64,000 bases of DNA from Winogradskyella echinorum (GTDB lineage Bacteria > Bacteroidota > Bacteroidia > Flavobacteriales > Flavobacteriaceae). The stretch covers positions 496,001-560,000 of the forward strand of contig NZ_JACOQD010000002.1 of NCBI RefSeq assembly GCF_014297365.1, read 5' to 3'. The notes beneath the pieces were generated by a model. That model saw only the letters and a program-made list of their open reading frames with translations. It did not search any database and had not been told where the DNA came from. Below, one piece after another: positions 52,407-61,200 of the stretch (positions are counted from its first letter, which is position 1; each line of letters opens with the position of its first letter). The position numbers were made by a program, and so were the translations under genes.

Positions 52407-53555
52407 ATGAAACCCAACACCGTGAATACAAAAACAAGTCTAAACACTATAGAAGAAGCTATTGAAGATATTCGACAAGGCAAAGTTATAATTGTTGTTG
52501 ATGATGAAAACCGAGAAAATGAAGGTGATTTTTTAGCTGCAGCCGAAAAAGTTACGCCCGAAATGATTAATTTCATGGCAACGCATGGTCGTGGATTAAT
52601 TTGTGCACCTCTAACTGAACATCGATGTGAAGAATTAGAGCTTAACATGATGGTTAGAAACAATACTGACCCAATGGAAACGGCTTTTACAATTTCTGTG
52701 GATCTAAGAGGAAATGGTGTAAGTACTGGAATTTCCGCAAGTGATAGATCTAAAACTGTTAAAGCTTTAGTCAATAACAACACAAAACCATTTGAATTAG
52801 CTAGACCTGGACATATCTTTCCTTTAGTAGCTAAAGAAGGTGGTGTATTAAGGAGAACTGGCCATACAGAAGCTGCCATAGATTTTGCGCGTTTAGCAGG
52901 TTATGAACCAGCTGGTGTTATTGTAGAAATTATGAACGAAGATGGTTCAATGGCACGTTTACCACAACTTTTTGAGGTGGCGAAGAAGTTTGGTTTAAAA
53001 ATCGTATCTATTGAAGATTTAGTGGCTTATCGTATGGAGCACGACTCTTTAATAGATAAGAAAGAAGATTTTAATATCGAAACACGTTTTGGTAAGTTTA
53101 GACTAAGAGCCTATCAACAAACAACTAACGATCAAGTACATATCGCTTTAACTAAGGGTTCGTGGAAGTCTGATGAATCTATATTAACTCGTGTTAATAA
53201 CACATTAGTTAATAATGATATTCTAGGTACATTAACTAATAATGCAGATCAAAAATTAGATGACATGTTCAATGTTATTAATAAAGAAGGTAAAGGAGCA
53301 ATTATATTTATTAATCAGCAACCTGAGTCTATAAATTTATTGACACGTCTATCTATTTTAAAAGAAAGCCAAGTTGAAGGTCGACTAGTTAAAGCACCTA
53401 GTTTGGGAATGGATTCTAAAGATTTCGGTATTGGAGCTCAAATATTACACGATCTTAAAATTAGTAAACTAAAGCTTATCTCAAATAGTCTCCAAACCAA
53501 ACGTGTGGGTATGATTGGGTATGGCTTAGAGATTGTTGATTATGTGGAGTATTAG
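52407..53555 (+). CDS. ribB: 3,4-dihydroxy-2-butanone-4-phosphate synthase with degenerate GTP cyclohydrolase II domain
   Basis: A 382-residue RibBA-like enzyme of riboflavin synthesis. The DHBP synthase domain (about 11-215) is intact, with VVDDENRENEGDF (30-42), GRGLICAPLTEHRC, RPGHIFPL and RRTGHTEAAIDFARLAGYEPAG. The C-terminal domain (about 225-382) has the GTP cyclohydrolase II fold pattern, but the zinc-ligand Cys cluster (GSLRCDCGPQL in active enzymes) reads LGTLTNNADQKL here, so GTP cyclohydrolase activity is not expected. A separate ribA must exist elsewhere. The stop overlaps the convergent lipoprotein gene by 4 bp. Confidence 0.93.
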   Translation: MKPNTVNTKTSLNTIEEAIEDIRQGKVIIVVDDENRENEGDFLAAAEKVTPEMINFMATHGRGLICAPLTEHRCEELELNMMVRNNTDPMETAFTISVDLRGNGVSTGISASDRSKTVKALVNNNTKPFELARPGHIFPLVAKEGGVLRRTGHTEAAIDFARLAGYEPAGVIVEIMNEDGSMARLPQLFEVAKKFGLKIVSIEDLVAYRMEHDSLIDKKEDFNIETRFGKFRLRAYQQTTNDQVHIALTKGSWKSDESILTRVNNTLVNNDILGTLTNNADQKLDDMFNVINKEGKGAIIFINQQPESINLLTRLSILKESQVEGRLVKAPSLGMDSKDFGIGAQILHDLKISKLKLISNSLQTKRVGMIGYGLEIVDYVEY

Positions 53556-54517
53556 TCCGTTACTTCAAAAATCTTAAATAGCCCTTTACTTCTTGACATA
53601 GGCACCTCAGATATAAGTGCATATTTACCTGGTGTTAAATCCGCATAGAAATAGCCAGAACTACCAGCTGGCATATCATTAACACCTCCTAAAAAGGTTA
53701 TACCATTAGGAACAGGAGTAATTAATCCTTTCGGATCTGACCAATCCATCCAAGCTTCAAGTTCATCTTCGTTAGCATTATCTTCTAGTTTTACCAGGTT
53801 AACATCATGCCATATAAAATTCTCATGTGGTTTTTGGTCTTTTACAAATACAGAAAAAATTTGATTCCCTTTAGTTATTACTTTATCATAGGTAATCCCT
53901 TCTTCACCTGATAGAATAATATTCACTGTCGGTTCAGGAGGTGAGTTTCCACTATCCTTTTTAAGTACAATTATTGGTTTTGCCATTCCCATTAAAGTAT
54001 GAAACATCCCATTTGGCATTTTCACATAACATTCCATAATGTAATAGCCAGGATCTAATTTAATTGTTGTAATAGCTTTGCGTTTCGGGGCAATAAGCCC
54101 TGTTCCACCAGAAAAGACAATATCAAAATACCATTTAGGAAGTTTATTAAATTCAGCAAATCCTTCTTCAGATTTCCCTTTATTAATCAAATCCATTCCT
54201 TCAGCAAAAACAGGTGCGACATCGGTTAATGTGTTTTCAATAGTTTTTCCATCAGGATATTTATCTAGTAGAAAGAAATGCGTTTCGTTTGAAAGGTTTT
54301 CATATTTAAACGTATTCCAACCTGATGGAATGGTATCTACCGATTGAAAATTCATTCCTATTGATACCACATCGATAACATTTTCAGGCATTTTGAAAAC
54401 TTCCTCGGCTTCTTTTAAAACTTCATCGATGATCTTTGGTTTTTTTTCAGTTTTGCAATTAAAAAACATAGTTAACGCTAGCAGTGCTAAACACATAGGT
54501 TGATTTATAGTTTTCAT
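53552..54517 (-). CDS. Lipoprotein with two possible cupredoxin-like repeats
   Basis: A 321-residue lipoprotein (Cys21 after LTMFFN). I do not recognise a firm family. Two halves show a similar beta-sandwich pattern: first IPSGWNTFKYENLSNETHFFL then LDPGYYIMECYVKMPNGMFHTLMGM; second FIWHDVNLVKLE then MPAGSSGYFYADLTPGKYALI. The phrases 'xPAGxxxF', 'LxPGxYxxxCxV' and 'H...MGM' resemble plastocyanin-type domains. A copper site is possible in the first half only (His, Cys, His, Met present). Function unknown. It is followed after 90 bp by a T9SS gene on the same strand. Confidence 0.78.
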   Translation of the reverse strand: MKTINQPMCLALLALTMFFNCKTEKKPKIIDEVLKEAEEVFKMPENVIDVVSIGMNFQSVDTIPSGWNTFKYENLSNETHFFLLDKYPDGKTIENTLTDVAPVFAEGMDLINKGKSEEGFAEFNKLPKWYFDIVFSGGTGLIAPKRKAITTIKLDPGYYIMECYVKMPNGMFHTLMGMAKPIIVLKKDSGNSPPEPTVNIILSGEEGITYDKVITKGNQIFSVFVKDQKPHENFIWHDVNLVKLEDNANEDELEAWMDWSDPKGLITPVPNGITFLGGVNDMPAGSSGYFYADLTPGKYALISEVPMSRSKGLFKIFEVTD

Positions 54518-54546: not shown

Positions 54547-57153
54547 CTAGTTGATTATTATTTTTTGAGTAAAATCTCCTCGATTAGTTTCTACTTTGAG
54601 CACATAAATTCCTGCTTGATAAGCACTAACATCAATTTGATTCCTATTTTGCTCAGATGTATATAATTTTTTTCCAAAAAGATCATATATAATTGTATTT
54701 CTAAGCATATTTGCTGTTGAAATATGTAAGGTCTCTGAAACTGGGTTTAGATACACCACAAATTTGTTTTCTTCAAAATTATTAGTAGATAATTTATTTC
54801 TATTTAAAACCACCAAAGAGGTGGTTACAGGTAATCTTCCATTTTGAGAATTAAAATCAACTGTTTTTGTAAATGTCAAGTTTTGTGGATTGAATTCGAA
54901 TACTGTTCCTAAATTATATGTACCACCTTCAGAAGTCACTCCATAAAGTTTATTATTGAGAAGTGTTAGACTCCCAAGTGGATTAGCACCTGTTAGAGTA
55001 TCATTAAAATCGAAAACCTTAGTAAAAGTGTTCGTCTGAATATCAAACTTAAAAATAACACCATCACCATTTGCTCCTCCTTCAGAAGTCATTCCGTAAA
55101 GCGTATTAGTATCAAACTGAAGTAAATTACCATAAGGTCGAGAACCATTTACTCCATCATATTCAAATTCATGTAGCTTGTTAAAACCTGTTGTAAAATC
55201 GTATTCAAAAACCACACCTCCTCCTTGCAGTCCGCCATCAGAAGTCATTCCATAGAGTTTTCCATTTAAGGCTTCAATTAAACCTCCATTTGGAAATGCA
55301 CCGCTTTCTAAATTAAAATCGTGAATTTTAGTATATTGATCGGTATTTATATCATATTCAAAAATAGTACCTGCAGGTGCATCGATTTCCATAAAGACAC
55401 CTTCACCACCAACAGAGGTCATTCCGTAAATTTTATTATTAGAAGCTTGTAATAAATCACCCAAAGGCGTACCTCCTAGCTCATCACTAAAATTATGTTT
55501 TTTAGAATATGTATTTGAAGATAAATCAAACTCAAAAAACACACCTAAATTATTATTTCCACCTCGATATGCTGTACCATATAATTTTCCGTTTGAGGCT
55601 TCTAATAAGCTGGCTCTTGGCGCAATACCAAGTTCATTATTATTAACCTCATCAAAGCTATACAATCTTGTATAAAGGTTATTTACTGGATTGAATTCAA
55701 AAATTGCACCTGTATCGTTAATTCCACCACGATATGTTAGTCCGTAAAATTTTTGTTGATTTCCAGAAAAAATCAAGCTACCATCTGGTCCACCACCATC
55801 TTCTGAACTATTAAATTTAAAAATAGGATTATACGAGTTAGTCGTTACATCAAAACTGTAAAACATACCATTAGTTGTGTCAACATTGCCATATACAGTT
55901 TTGTTAGTTATACCATATAGTTTACCATCTGATGCTTCCAAAAGGCTTCCATAAGGATAATGACCTGAAGTGTAATTAAAACCATAAAGCACACTAGATA
56001 TATTGCTCATAGGATCATATTCAAACAAAGAGCCAATGTCACTAGCACCTCCATACCTAGTAACACCATAAAGTTTGTTATTGGATGCTAATGTAAGATT
56101 AGAACTAGGTACATAACCTAAATTGTTAGCATCCCCAAAATCGACCAAAGTTGTAAATGTGCTCGTTGTGATATTGTATTTAAAAAGGATACCATAACCA
56201 TTCAAACCACCGTCGTCAGTTGTACCAAAGAGTTCTAAGGAATTATTAGGACCTTCAATTAATGTACCTAAAGGATATTTTCCTGAGGTCTCAGTAGATC
56301 CAAAATTATACAAACTTGTTAGTGCGTTGGTAATAAAATCATATTGAAATAATACACCAAAACCATAATCACCACCTCCACTAGTGAGACCATATAACTT
56401 TGCATCACTGGCTTCAAACAAAGATCCGTAAGGTATTGCACCTGGATTTAATACATCATCGTCAAAATCTATTTTTTTGGTATATGTATTTGTGTTGATG
56501 TCAAATTCGAAAATTACGCCATTTCCATAATCTCCTCCAACAGAAGTCATTCCATATAGTTTTCCATTAGAAGCATATGTAAGTTCTCCTTCTGGTGCTC
56601 TACCATTTGAATCATTAAAATCATGAATCTTTGTAAAAACATCTTGCATGTAATCATATTCAAAAATGACTCCATCACCATGAATCCCTCCTTCTCTAGT
56701 CATACCATAAAGTTTGTTATTAACTTCAATGAGCGATCCTTCAGGACGATGTCCGTTTGCTGAATATGAAGCTCCAAACTCGTCAACCCCAAATTTAAAC
56801 TTGGTTTCATATACATTAGTTACAGGATCATACTCATATAAAACTCCACTTGCGTTATCACTGTCATAGTATAGACCACTTAAATAATGCCCAGAATAAG
56901 GTGCTAAACCATAAAACTTTCCGTTGGAAGCTTCTATAACTCCACTTTTAATTTCAACACCATCCGTTTTAAAAAAATCATATTGGAGTTCTAGATTTTC
57001 AGCATTTTCATCGGTTTTAAAGATGGTTCCTATATCAGATTTTCCTCCTCTAAAGGTCATTCCCCACAATTCAAAACCTTCTTGAGATAGAATCATATTA
57101 GGCAATAAAATTATTATTAATGCCAGTACTTTATTGAGTATTTTTATTTTCAT
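54547..57153 (-). CDS. T9SS-exported GloVer tandem-repeat protein
   Basis: An 868-residue exported protein. Signal peptide MKIKILNKVLALIIILLPNMILSQ, then about 14 tandem units of about 55 residues, each with a core like KLYGMTSEGGANGDGVIFKFD (full variants at residues near 50, 110, 170, 220, 280 and onward). This matches the 'GloVer' choice-of-anchor repeat (TIGR03803), predicted beta-propeller-like. The C-terminus (NPVSETLHISTANM...) is a type A T9SS sorting domain ending in VLKVETNRGDFTQKIIIN. It is therefore secreted or cell-surface. The upstream ATG (57192) is rejected because the signal peptide begins at 57153. Probable cotranscription with the lipoprotein 87 bp upstream. Confidence 0.9.
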   Translation of the reverse strand: MKIKILNKVLALIIILLPNMILSQEGFELWGMTFRGGKSDIGTIFKTDENAENLELQYDFFKTDGVEIKSGVIEASNGKFYGLAPYSGHYLSGLYYDSDNASGVLYEYDPVTNVYETKFKFGVDEFGASYSANGHRPEGSLIEVNNKLYGMTREGGIHGDGVIFEYDYMQDVFTKIHDFNDSNGRAPEGELTYASNGKLYGMTSVGGDYGNGVIFEFDINTNTYTKKIDFDDDVLNPGAIPYGSLFEASDAKLYGLTSGGGDYGFGVLFQYDFITNALTSLYNFGSTETSGKYPLGTLIEGPNNSLELFGTTDDGGLNGYGILFKYNITTSTFTTLVDFGDANNLGYVPSSNLTLASNNKLYGVTRYGGASDIGSLFEYDPMSNISSVLYGFNYTSGHYPYGSLLEASDGKLYGITNKTVYGNVDTTNGMFYSFDVTTNSYNPIFKFNSSEDGGGPDGSLIFSGNQQKFYGLTYRGGINDTGAIFEFNPVNNLYTRLYSFDEVNNNELGIAPRASLLEASNGKLYGTAYRGGNNNLGVFFEFDLSSNTYSKKHNFSDELGGTPLGDLLQASNNKIYGMTSVGGEGVFMEIDAPAGTIFEYDINTDQYTKIHDFNLESGAFPNGGLIEALNGKLYGMTSDGGLQGGGVVFEYDFTTGFNKLHEFEYDGVNGSRPYGNLLQFDTNTLYGMTSEGGANGDGVIFKFDIQTNTFTKVFDFNDTLTGANPLGSLTLLNNKLYGVTSEGGTYNLGTVFEFNPQNLTFTKTVDFNSQNGRLPVTTSLVVLNRNKLSTNNFEENKFVVYLNPVSETLHISTANMLRNTIIYDLFGKKLYTSEQNRNQIDVSAYQAGIYVLKVETNRGDFTQKIIIN

Positions 57154-57240
57154 AATAGTTATTTGAATTATAATAGAACTTCTCTCAGCCAAAAATTGCT
57201 GTTCTTTAAGTGTTACTTGTGTTTTCTGTTTTTTTTCTAT

Positions 57241-57912
57241 TTATTCAGTAGGCAAATGGTATTCAAACGTTGCGTTCACTGTATGATGCAGCTCTTGTGG
57301 ATCTGTAGTTGGACTCGTAAACGCTTTGTAAATTGCGCCACCAATCAGAGTACCTTTTACATATTTTAAAACCGTAAGTCCTTCAATTTCTACTGTTTCT
57401 AACTCTAGAATTTGTACAGTAATTGATTGAGATAGTAAATCTGTTAATACATCATTATCCATATCATTATCACTGTCGTAAAATGCATCATCAAAAGCAA
57501 AAATCGTATAGTAATCTGGTAAATCTGTAATGATTCCTGTATTGGTTGTTTGTATTTCTCCTACAGGATGCGAACCCACACTTGCAGGCGCTTGAATAGT
57601 AACTTGTTTAAAATTATCATTTAAGCCAAATCCAGAAGAAAATGTTAAATTCAAAATACCTTGAAATCCAACTGGATTAATAGCTCCTGCTATAATTACG
57701 TTTGAAAGATTTGTTTCATTGTTTGCTGGAATTCTAAAGTCTATACCATTTATTGCATTTCCTATTACATCGTAAGAAATAAAAGACGTATCGGATTGCG
57801 GGTTCTGTTCTTCAGAATTATTAGTATCATCACTCGCGCATGAAGTAAAGTTTATAAAGATGGTAATAGTTATTATGGCATATATTACTTTTAATACAAT
57901 TTTTGTTTTCAT
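57241..57912 (-). CDS. Lipoprotein of unknown function, probably in the HTCS regulon
   Basis: A 223-residue lipoprotein with MKTKIVLKVIYAIITITIFINFTSC and lipobox Cys25 followed by ASDDTNNSEEQNP. The rest is beta-rich with SFISYDVIGNAINGIDFRIP, GFQGILNLTFSSGFGLN and a C-terminal YKAFTSPTTDPQELHHTVNATFEYHLP. I recognise no family. Its promoter region carries the AraC-type direct repeat that follows the HTCS gene, so it and the GloVer gene are likely targets of the HTCS. Confidence 0.8.
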   Translation of the reverse strand: MKTKIVLKVIYAIITITIFINFTSCASDDTNNSEEQNPQSDTSFISYDVIGNAINGIDFRIPANNETNLSNVIIAGAINPVGFQGILNLTFSSGFGLNDNFKQVTIQAPASVGSHPVGEIQTTNTGIITDLPDYYTIFAFDDAFYDSDNDMDNDVLTDLLSQSITVQILELETVEIEGLTVLKYVKGTLIGGAIYKAFTSPTTDPQELHHTVNATFEYHLPTE

Positions 57913-58119
57913 GATTATTTAAAGATTTTGATTAATAGCTTATTCTCTGAAATAAAAATAAAGGTGTATTTCCCTTTTTTTAAATGCTCTATATTTAAAT
58001 AAATATGCTGGCTGTCGGCTTGTTTTTTTTATCACTTTTACTCATTTGTAATTGATTTTATTATTTAACTCTACTATCAATTAAATGAGAATTTTATTGT
58101 TAAATAAAACTTTCTGAAA

Positions 58120-58127
58120 CAAAAATA
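58120..58127 (-). promoter_or_regulatory. -7 promoter box of the lipoprotein/GloVer operon
   Basis: Minus-strand TATTTTTG (58127-58120), exact TAnnTTTG. Transcription would begin near 58115, giving an AT-rich leader of about 200 nt. The operator at 58153 lies 26 bp upstream. Confidence 0.55.
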
Positions 58128-58152
58128 TGCTGTAATTAAGAAGGTGGCTTTC

Positions 58153-58185
58153 AATTATGTAACAAAGCCTTCAAATTATGTAACA
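58153..58185. promoter_or_regulatory. Probable HTCS operator (direct repeats with 21-bp period)
   Basis: AATTATGTAACA at 58153-58164 and again at 58174-58185: twelve identical bases exactly 21 bp apart. It sits 21 bp beyond the HTCS stop and immediately upstream of the -7 box at 58127. The AraC-type domain at the HTCS C-terminus is expected to bind such repeats. Confidence 0.75.
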
Positions 58186-58205
58186 CGTGCTTTTAAGGAC
58201 TGTGT

Positions 58206-61200
58206 TTATTGAGATGAGCGATACTCATCTGGTGAAGTATTGTAATGTTTTTTAAAACATGTACTGAAATAAGATGGTGAATTAAAACCAACCTCATAAG
58301 TAATTTCAGAGATTGATGCATCTGATTTTTTAAGAAGTGGTAGTGATAATTTTAATCGTTCTTTAGTAATGAATTCTGTAGTTGATAATCCCGTTAAGGC
58401 TTTCATCTTTCTGTGAAGTTGCATACGACTCATTAGCATTTTTTTGCTAAGCATTTCGGCACTAAACTCGCTTTTAGAAATATTTTCATTTAATACTATA
58501 TAGAGTTTCTCTAAAAACTGCTGCTCTACGCTAGTTACCGCAAGATCTTTTAATTTAAAATCCTTACTATAGCGCTTTTGAAGTTGTGCTCTTATTTTTA
58601 ACAGATTTTCAATTTGTGCCATCAACTTCCCTCTATTAAATGGCTTGGTTACATAAGCATCTGCGCCTACTTGTAACCCTTCTATCTCATGTTCATTATC
58701 ACTTTTGGCGGTTAATAATATAATAGGGATATGACAAGTTCTTTCGTCTTGCTTTAAAGTATTGCAAAGTCCTATTCCATTTTCTATAGGCATCATCACG
58801 TCGCTAATAATTAAATCTGGAATAGTTACTAATGCTTTTTCAATTCCTTGCTGACCATTTACTGCTTCGATAATTTTATAGCTATCTTGCAAAAATGATT
58901 TTACATAAAGCCTAATATCTTCATCATCTTCTACTAAAAGAACTATATGTTTATTTTTTGATTTTACTTTTTGAGATGCTAAAGAATTTTCTACATCAAC
59001 GTCTTTCTCTATATTTTCAACTTTCTGAATAGATGTGGAACCAATTTCTGAAGATTTATAATACGCACGTGCAATAGGTAAATTGACAGTAAACTGAATT
59101 TCGTTTGTGTTTAGCATATGTGCAACTATGTTTCCATGAGATAAAATGGTCAGTTCTTTCACCAAAGCTAATCCGATACCTGCTCCATCATTAGTCTTAT
59201 CCCCTTGATAATATCTTTTAAATAGTTTTTGCAGATCTTCATTTGAATAGTGTACACCATTATTAGTAACGCTCATAACTAAATGGTCCTCTTGAATATG
59301 AGCTTCAAAATGTACAAAACCATTTTCTGGTGCATATTTCATTGCATTTGATAATAGGTTTACCACTATTTTTTCCACTACATCTTTATCAAACCAAACG
59401 TTTTCGGTTTTGTCAATACTGTAGGTAAAATCAATTTGTTTGTTTTGTGCCTTAAACTTAAAAGGTGTAACGAGTTGCTTTAATAAGAGTTCGAGATTAT
59501 CATGAGATACTGAAAGCTTTAAATTACCAGTTTCTAGCTTAGAAATATCTAGTATTTGATTGACTAAATTCAATAATCTTCCAGCATTTCTCTTTACCAT
59601 AGCTAATTCTTCTCTATCCTCGTCTTTTAGATAAGATTTTGAAAGTTGATTTTCTATTGGGTCTGAAATAAGGGTTAATGGTGTTCTGAATTCATGAGAA
59701 ATATTAGTAAATAAACGATTTTTAAATTCGTCTAGTTTTTTGAGTCTTTCGGCCTCTTTATGTTCAAACTCTAATTCGTTTTTAATTTGCAAACGCCATT
59801 GTAGATATTTATAGAATAGATATAAGGCGGTAATAATTAATAATCCATAGATAATATATGCCAAATTAGTAGCGTACCATGGCTTATTAATTCTAAAACT
59901 GTAAATGGCTGGTGTTTCGTTCCAAACATCATCATAGTTACTTGAGATAACATGAAACTCATATTCATTGGGTGGTAAATTGGTATAACGAACAAAATTG
60001 TTGTGTTTAGCGTCTTGCCAGTTATCATCATAATTTACAAGCTTATACCTGAAATTATTTTTGCTTGGAGAGGAAAAGTGCAGGCTATTGAAAGTGAAGT
60101 TTATCGTATTTTCAGTATGCTTAAAACGCTTTGGTTTAAAAACGGATTGAGGCTCTTCATTGACTTCTACCCTAGTAATAATTGTGCTAGTTAATGAAGT
60201 GTTCTGTTTAATATTATTTGGATTAAACCAATTAACCCCTTTAGTACCTCCAAAATAAAATAGATTACGTTTTGAATCTTTCACCGCTGATCTTGTTACA
60301 AAATAAGGAGACTGCAACCCATCAAACTTATCATAATTTTCTGCTTCTAAATTTTTAGTATTGAATTTTATAATACCTTGATTTGAGCTTAACCAAAGAT
60401 TATCGGCTTCTGGCAAAATTGCACATATAGTAGCACTTGTTATTCCAAAGGATTTGTCATATGATATTGTTTCTCTTGTTTTAGAGTTGAATTTAATTAA
60501 CCCATTGGTATTGGTAGCAATCCAGATTATGTCTTCTGAATCTATATAAAGATATCTAGCTAAACCATCAAATTCATTAAATCTTTGAATTTTATCTGTC
60601 TCTGGATTAATTCTACAAAGCCCTTTGTATTTAGTACCGATCCATATACAATTCTTACTATCTTCAGCAATTGAATAAATTAAATCACTCGATATAGAAT
60701 TAACATTCTTGGAATTGTACCTATATTGTTTTACGATACCTAATTCTTCATCAAATTGAATTAAACCACTATCTGAAGTAGATAGCCACACCCTATCTTT
60801 GGAATCTTGAAATATATTGTAAATGTAGCCAACATCTAATCTAGGATTAGAACTACTATTGAAAGTAGATATGCGCCCATCAGGTTTTAAAATTTGGATT
60901 TCGGGAGTTTCATTTGCTATCCATAAATCTTTTCCAATAAATTTTAAATAGGCAATTTTGTTAGAACTTAAATCTGAATTCTGTTTGTTATAAACCTTAA
61001 ATTTAGTCTTAGTACTATCTGCATGTACTATACCATAATTATGTGTACCCATCCATAAACTGCCATCATAATCAATATCCAAACTTTTAATTAGACTTAG
61101 ATTTATGTTTATTGGTAACCGTTCATTATTAAGTAGGTTAAATTTTTGAAGTTTTTCATCGTATAGACATATACCACCTCCATCAGTTCCTATCCATATA

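Follow-up and report, generated by a model that had tools for sequence, protein, structure and literature searches.

The window, by which we mean the whole 64,000-nt stretch of DNA analysed here, carries on its minus strand a gene for a hybrid two-component protein (HTCS), a double direct repeat behind the end of that gene, a promoter box, and an operon encoding a lipoprotein, a GloVer tandem-repeat protein and a second, putative lipoprotein (Table 1). A first-pass annotation of the same DNA had described the regulator as a hybrid two-component protein with an AraC output domain. Pfam bears this out, placing a sensor, HisKA, HATPase_c, a receiver and an AraC HTH in one chain. Among solved structures, the best sequence match to the HTH domain is 12aw_A (E 3.8e-19), a chain labelled as a hybrid two-component system protein. 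The recognition helix of HTH1 in this HTCS (L072 in our locus set) reads SRMQLHRK, with the methionine at about residue 1236. The receiver carries CHIP (DERTCHIPIILL in the ORF), which fits the S/CHIP receiver motif and is part of the motif tied to REC-DBD inhibition, the inhibition of the HTH domain, in Bacteroides HTCSs (PMC11253607).

Table 1. Features of the locus in window coordinates
Feature	Coordinates	Strand	Evidence or remarks
HTCS, 1307 aa	58206..62129	-	Reg_prop propeller, Y_Y_Y, HisKA, HATPase_c, Response_reg, HTH_18 (Pfam)
Putative operator unit 1, TGTTACATAATTTGAAGGCTT	58165..58185	-	sequence
Putative operator unit 2, promoter-proximal, TGTTACATAATTGAAAGCCAC	58144..58164	-	sequence
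16-nt spacer, operator to -7 box	58128..58143	-	equal length in 32/33 genus-set sites
-7 box TATTTTTG, TAnnTTTG, sigma-A type of Flavobacteriaceae	58120..58127	-	sequence; consensus PMC9723704
Frameshifted microprotein gene copy	57933..58045	-	profile E 7.5e-10, internal stops
223-aa lipoprotein (family 2)	57241..57912	-	matches in five other same-genus genomes; family member in L032
GloVer tandem-repeat protein, T9SS type A tail	54547..57192	-	TIGR03803, TIGR04183
321-aa putative lipoprotein (family 4)	53552..54517	-	family members in operons of L044, L046, L048, L050

As the first-pass annotation reported, the 12-mer AATTATGTAACA occurs twice at a spacing of 21 bp (58153-58164 and 58174-58185), and a TAnnTTTG box lies on the minus strand at 58127-58120. 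TAnnTTTG is the sigma-A type -7 consensus in Flavobacteriaceae (PMC9723704). Read 5' to 3' toward the target operon, the element consists of TGTTACATAATTTGAAGGCTT, TGTTACATAATTGAAAGCCAC, 16 nt and TATTTTTG, so that the target is preceded by a direct repeat with a period of about 21 bp. Because the HTCS ORF ends at 58206, the gap between its stop and the repeat is 20 nt (58186-58205). The 12-mer alone is unremarkable, with 28 matches in the window at two or fewer mismatches against 26.7 expected. The pair TGTTACATAATT-N9-TGTTACATAATT, at three or fewer mismatches, is found at one place in the 3.78-Mb genome to which the window belongs, and the same pattern read backwards has no match in that genome. 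Autoregulation through this operator is unsupported, as the window yielded no further complete TGTTACA pair. An Rfam scan of 57800-58300 returned a single, sub-threshold CRISPR-repeat match, which we took as chance.

Genes behind the repeat

HTCSs are best known for regulating polysaccharide loci. The first-pass annotation put this as HTCSs normally controlling SusC/SusD, which holds insofar as the linkage is common; it is not obligatory, and 11 of 36 B. theta HTCSs are not linked to susC/D (PMC3878776). At the present locus the linkage is absent, as the annotation said: none of the genome's 11 SusD_RagB matches falls in the window, and the one SusD_RagB match on the window's contig, at C3:431466, lies outside it. 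The target that the annotation named, a lipoprotein plus a GloVer protein, is present in the window but is not a constant part of such loci; relatives usually have a microprotein first, and the GloVer protein is without counterpart, none of the 15 partial loci in the comparison having a protein that clusters with it by blastp. Its identification as a GloVer/T9SS protein was correct, with 13 TIGR03803 stretches and a TIGR04183 T9SS tail. Both lipoprotein families recur in relatives' loci, the family 2 relatives having an internal stop in one genome and being weak and broken in another. A single-sequence AlphaFold model of the 321-aa protein (pLDDT 34) was set aside.

A wider view comes from 110 proteins encoded downstream of 47 site-linked family HTCSs (up to three per locus, and none from some loci). 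Among the matches listed were OmpA (11), Peptidase_S74 (11), Por_Secre_tail (11), DUF4412 (6) and YadA_head (5), with SusD and Plug once each. The matches listed for 92 neighbours of 44 other HTCSs include Plug 12 times and Por_Secre_tail three times, a contrast that is rough because these neighbours come from both sides of the HTCS and the 110 only from downstream. The targets of the operator thus appear often to be OmpA, S74 and T9SS proteins and rarely SusCD.

Conserved geometry and a residue-to-base correspondence

The first-pass annotation proposed looking for the repeat in relatives that keep the gene order. It is conserved there, which supports the operator interpretation. Seven same-genus HTCSs (L003-L009, 43-47% identical) and L032 (54% identical in the best segment) are followed by a 21-bp double repeat, either directly or after a tandem HTCS. 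The repeat is TGTTACA-type in seven of these eight, unit 1 being CGTTACA in two, and AAACAT-type in the genome G026. The latter shares the window's synteny, its HTCS has an SRTQ helix, and both sites behind that HTCS are AAACAT-type.

Neither the spacing nor the distance to the promoter varies much. In a motif-free spacing scan of 19 HTCS 3' regions, 21 bp was the best spacing alone in eight and tied for best in six, three of those six ties falling off the site, and another spacing led in the remaining five. With the half-site given, TGWWACA pairs behind 39 SRMQ/SRTQ HTCSs numbered 29 at a spacing of 21 bp, and no other spacing had more than two. In 32 of 33 genus-set sites, which had been picked without promoter information, a TAnnTTT box begins exactly 16 nt after the double unit; a reversed-box control on the same sites reached a maximum of four at one offset.

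Pattern searches extended this picture. A box-free pattern matched 26 places in 17 of 68 genus genomes, against one control match. The composite TGWWACA-N14-TGWWACA-N30/31-TANNTTT matched 117 places (by our own count) in 74 of 299 family genomes, and the reversed pattern had no match in any control column across the same 299. From the 117 places, 100 of 103 chosen ones were retrieved; L033 and L054 are one contig. Although this search was blind to protein information, 77 of the 103 distinct family sites have the end of an ORF in the same orientation no more than 350 nt upstream, and in 48 that ORF is an AraC-domain HTCS. The other 55 have no AraC HTCS directly upstream; some are likely to be remote members of a regulon, others to serve stand-alone AraC regulators or to be chance matches. 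A class-wide scan of 395 genomes with TGNNACA matched 38 places in 20 of them, the control giving three matches, and its TGTTACA-unit sites added four SRMQ HTCSs, two from another family (L304, L305) and two from the window's own (L308, L321).

A different class of HTCS, with the helix SDSQLYRK, has TGACAAAATA-like units (at least 8 of 12 bases matching), and in 11 of 11 cases these keep to the identical spacings of 21 bp and 16 nt. Because this class keeps the geometry with other units, the operator geometry looks general and its sequence class-specific. The double units of these loci (L015, L018, L019, L020, L027, L028, L107, L111, L112, L114 and L116) lie about 60 nt behind the stop.

Several further sites are worth recording. 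At L060, L061, L069, L220 and L280, TGTTACA-type double repeats adjoin genes for stand-alone AraC-type regulators of about 340-360 aa. L071 and L289 (G345:C4:324570) have a TGATACA/TGTTACA site and a -7 box before a repeat-protein gene, with no HTCS directly upstream; the gene presumably encodes curlin-like repeats. A second double repeat, TGTTACA/TGATACA, occurs within the operon of G008 (L049, 13854).

We compared recognition helices with half-sites in 83 distinct HTCSs, 36 from the genus and 47 from the family. When the first recognition helix carries Met (SRMQLHRK, once SRMQLNRK), the fourth base of unit 2 is T in 63 of 63 cases (59 TGTTACA, 4 TGATACA). When it does not, that base is A in 20 of 20, comprising 18 Thr helices, one Ser helix of the SDSQ class and one Val helix in the degraded HTH domain of L286. 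In the genus part we chose the pair closest to TGTTACA or TGAAACA, and in the family part the pattern restricts the two positions to A or T. The 83 include only HTCSs that have a TGWWACA-like pair no further than 350 nt away, so the rule is conditional on such a site. This helix column had the highest mutual information with the site of those tested, 0.80 of 0.80 bits against 0.55 for the next (computed on the 78 of 83 that are TT or AA cases). The position presumably corresponds to a base-contacting residue of MarA.

On a kinase-receiver tree of 81 of the 83 HTCSs (L244 and L152 being too short), the helix label changes three times and the site changes concordantly three times. The covariation amounts to two or three independent switches, including L286 with its degraded HTH, and because the switch events are few a sign test gives only p 0.25. 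Two further cases, both from the class-wide scan, bear on the rule. L299 (G830:C1:4212), outside the family, pairs the helix SRVHFHRR with a TGATACA/TGTTACA site and is a misfit to the strict non-Met rule. L295 has a Ser helix and TGCAACA at a distance of 409 nt, its A agreeing with the rule.

The two helix classes also occur in series. In G052, G002 and G034, an SRTQ propeller HTCS is followed by a TGAAACA-type site, a 7TMR HTCS gene (SRMQ) and the TGTTACA site of an operon, an arrangement that has the apparent form of a two-step regulatory cascade. In G006, G008 and G018, an SRMQ propeller HTCS stands directly before the TGTTACA operon that lies downstream of the 7TMR HTCS in the other three. 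Tandem pairs of a propeller SRTQ HTCS and a second HTCS with an SRMQ helix, again an apparent cascade, are found at L044 (10317-16892), L045 (2353-8930) and L050 (10752-17327); each HTCS of these tandems has its own site and its own microprotein behind it, and the second is 7TMR-DISM by Pfam in L044.

An HTCS-linked microprotein

The first-pass annotation missed a conserved microprotein gene, present in the window as a frameshifted copy ahead of the lipoprotein, at about 57933-58045. From the ATG at 58045 the copy reads MSKSDKKNKPTASIFI and then a stop, with the conserved body in another frame. Since it leaves the frame near an A-run, we take it to be a pseudogene or a sequencing error. Compared with the leader of L032, the window is identical at 241 of 305 aligned bases with 32 gap columns, made up of 86 of 99 across operator and promoter, 32 of 54 in the next part and 94 of 103 in the block that follows. 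In L032 this last block codes for a 47-aa protein, and a leader scan found the same family behind most sites. In relatives, the microprotein is 43-55 aa long from the chosen ATG and lies between promoter and lipoprotein, short enough to escape the usual ORF cut-off (it is missed at 60-80 aa). Judged by its substitutions, the microprotein is under purifying selection: dN was lower than dS in nine of nine pairs measured, at a ratio of about 0.08-0.24, a tenth pair being unequal in length.

Of 82 HTCS-linked sites, 62 have the microprotein behind them according to a profile built from 25 members (a count that takes in the broken copy of the window), and profile matches fell in frames of at most 120 aa in 115 of 115 cases. 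It is present at 33 of 48 HTCS-adjacent sites versus 4 of 55 other family sites (Fisher p 3e-11, the related sequences not being independent). In the genus set it lies behind 30 of 37 SRMQ/SRTQ HTCSs, the frameshifted window copy again counted, versus 0 of 44 others. Of the seven SRMQ/SRTQ HTCSs without it, four come first in a tandem pair of TPR type and two belong to a clade of their own; the last is that of G006, where the microprotein is displaced further downstream. Among HTCSs with a site, it accompanies 25 of 29 of TPR size and 21 of 37 of propeller size (16 of 37 lack it), and it also occurs behind 7TMR-type HTCSs.

Scanning the 68 genus genomes directly gave 30 intact strong profile matches (E <=1.5e-11), of which 22 had a locus of their own, seven fell in loci already in the set and one lay at G063:C8:130257. 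Of the 22, 21 stand behind an SRMQ/SRTQ HTCS with a site and one is the displaced G006 copy. Fifteen weak matches (E 1.7e-5 to 9.9e-4) were mostly in long frames.

Five microproteins tested against Pfam and NCBIfam matched no model above cut-off. The commonest likeness is a weak one, between the last ~30 residues (L..G.Y.L.I....K) and the T9SS type A sorting domain (PF18962 / TIGR04183), whose C-terminal half they match: Por_Secre_tail matched 36 of 57 members at E <=0.1 (best 1.4e-5), and hhalign against six T9SS tails from these loci gave a probability of 76% (E 2.3e-5, 27 columns). Unlike that domain, the microprotein is free-standing, lacks the N-terminal YPNP half and stays below the 27-bit Pfam cut-off, with 15-23 bits in the members shown and 22.9 as the best of five. 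Nor, by eye, is it the C-terminal end of a secreted protein with a signal peptide; we saw no signal peptide in it, and its N-terminus is polar and lysine-rich. A structural model built from four sequences (pLDDT 70, pTM 0.42) had no PDB match at E <=0.001.

The tail likeness, in operons rich in T9SS cargo, could mean that the microprotein serves the type IX secretion system, as an adaptor or decoy in the cytosol, and is not a partner of the HTCS. We consider this a possible but rather unlikely reading. The likeness is below cut-off wherever scores are shown, and because DUF3244 and Y_Y_Y match 29 and 8 of the same 57 microproteins, it may be a likeness to beta-sandwich ends generally. We prefer a partnership with the HTCS because the presence of the microprotein correlates better with the HTCS than with the type of promoter, and because it accompanies sensors of propeller, TPR and 7TMR type alike. 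This pattern suggests that the microprotein is an unrecognised partner of these sensors.

Proposed mechanism and relation to known systems

Combining these observations, we propose that the repeat is the operator through which the adjacent HTCS activates the operon behind it, that the Met/Thr position sets its specificity, and that the microprotein feeds back on the HTCS. We regard this joint explanation as highly likely. On receipt of its presumed signal, two AraC-type domains of the phosphorylated HTCS would bind head-to-tail, one per 21-bp unit. Each unit comprises TGTTACA and a T..TA block some ten bases on, and both would be bound on one face of the DNA. Lying 16 nt from the -7 box, the promoter-proximal unit would stand in for the -33 element of the promoter, giving class II activation. 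The HTCS would thereby switch on the operon behind it, which in relatives usually starts with the microprotein and goes on to lipoproteins and to surface proteins of T9SS or outer-membrane type; in the window, where the microprotein frame is broken, the operon would consist of the lipoprotein, the GloVer protein and the further lipoprotein. Specificity would come largely from one residue of the first recognition helix, with Met favouring TGTTACA and Thr TGAAACA. The microprotein would most likely act on the cytosolic kinase-receiver-HTH part that its various HTCSs share, as a cis-encoded feedback.

Could the repeat instead belong to a stand-alone AraC-family regulator or a distant HTCS, its adjacency to this HTCS being incidental? 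The TGTTACA-type sites that adjoin stand-alone AraC genes would fit such a reading, as would the window's own genome, where contig C4 holds further SRMQ HTCSs and TGTTACA sites, so that the pairing of the repeat with the window HTCS rests on adjacency. Yet among the HTCSs that have a TGWWACA-like site, the half-site suits the helix class of its neighbour in 83 of 83 (L299, outside the family, misfits), and in the tandems each HTCS has its matching site, SRTQ with a TGAAACA-type site before the second HTCS and SRMQ with TGTTACA behind it. We therefore consider an incidental neighbour improbable. That the repeat is a chance or structural, regulator-free feature of AT-rich intergenic DNA, such as part of a terminator, is more improbable still, for although the 12-mer alone at two mismatches is at chance frequency, 74 of 299 genomes contain the composite pattern and none its reverse, and the geometry is rigid at both 21 bp and 16 nt. 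The regulatory reading of the repeat is well supported by these sequence comparisons, and the repeat is very probably the own switch site of the adjacent HTCS.

More tentatively, and with somewhat less than even confidence, we suggest that the SRMQ/SRTQ HTCSs in Flavobacteriaceae have largely left polysaccharide use. They would form a module of a sensor, a 21-bp operator and a cis-encoded cytosolic microprotein that resembles the last half of a T9SS tail and modulates the HTCS, in control of exchangeable surface proteins. Duplicate modules would be insulated from one another, or placed in series as in G052, G002 and G034, through the Met/Thr residue and the TT/AA bases.

A Flavobacteriaceae HTCS subfamily that stands before genes for surface proteins and T9SS cargo instead calls for a change in how such genes are annotated. 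The arrangement of two 21-bp units, 16 nt and a -7 box is rigid enough for a pattern-based search for regulon members. The Met/Thr rule offers a directly testable specificity switch of one residue and two bases.

The closest known counterparts of the operator are those predicted for the HTCSs of Bacteroides thetaiotaomicron, direct repeats at an average distance of 21 bp (Ravcheev et al. 2013, PMC3878776). The BT4111/BT4124 sites, two 12-bp sites with a 9-bp spacer, have the layout seen in the window (PMC3878776). Direct repeats at this average distance had thus already been predicted, and HTCSs without susC/D were already known (PMC3878776). That study chose its B. theta regulons for SusC/SusD and polysaccharide use, whereas the targets here are mostly not SusCD; the available part of its text gives no fixed -7 box distance, residue-to-base rule or microprotein (PMC3878776). 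In the open-access literature searched, we found neither a residue-to-base rule for HTCSs nor an HTCS-linked microprotein in print. Within the scope of these searches, the Flavobacteriaceae loci add four things to the HTCS operators predicted before: a -7 box at a rigid distance, the Met/Thr rule, operons for surface proteins, and the HTCS-linked microprotein.
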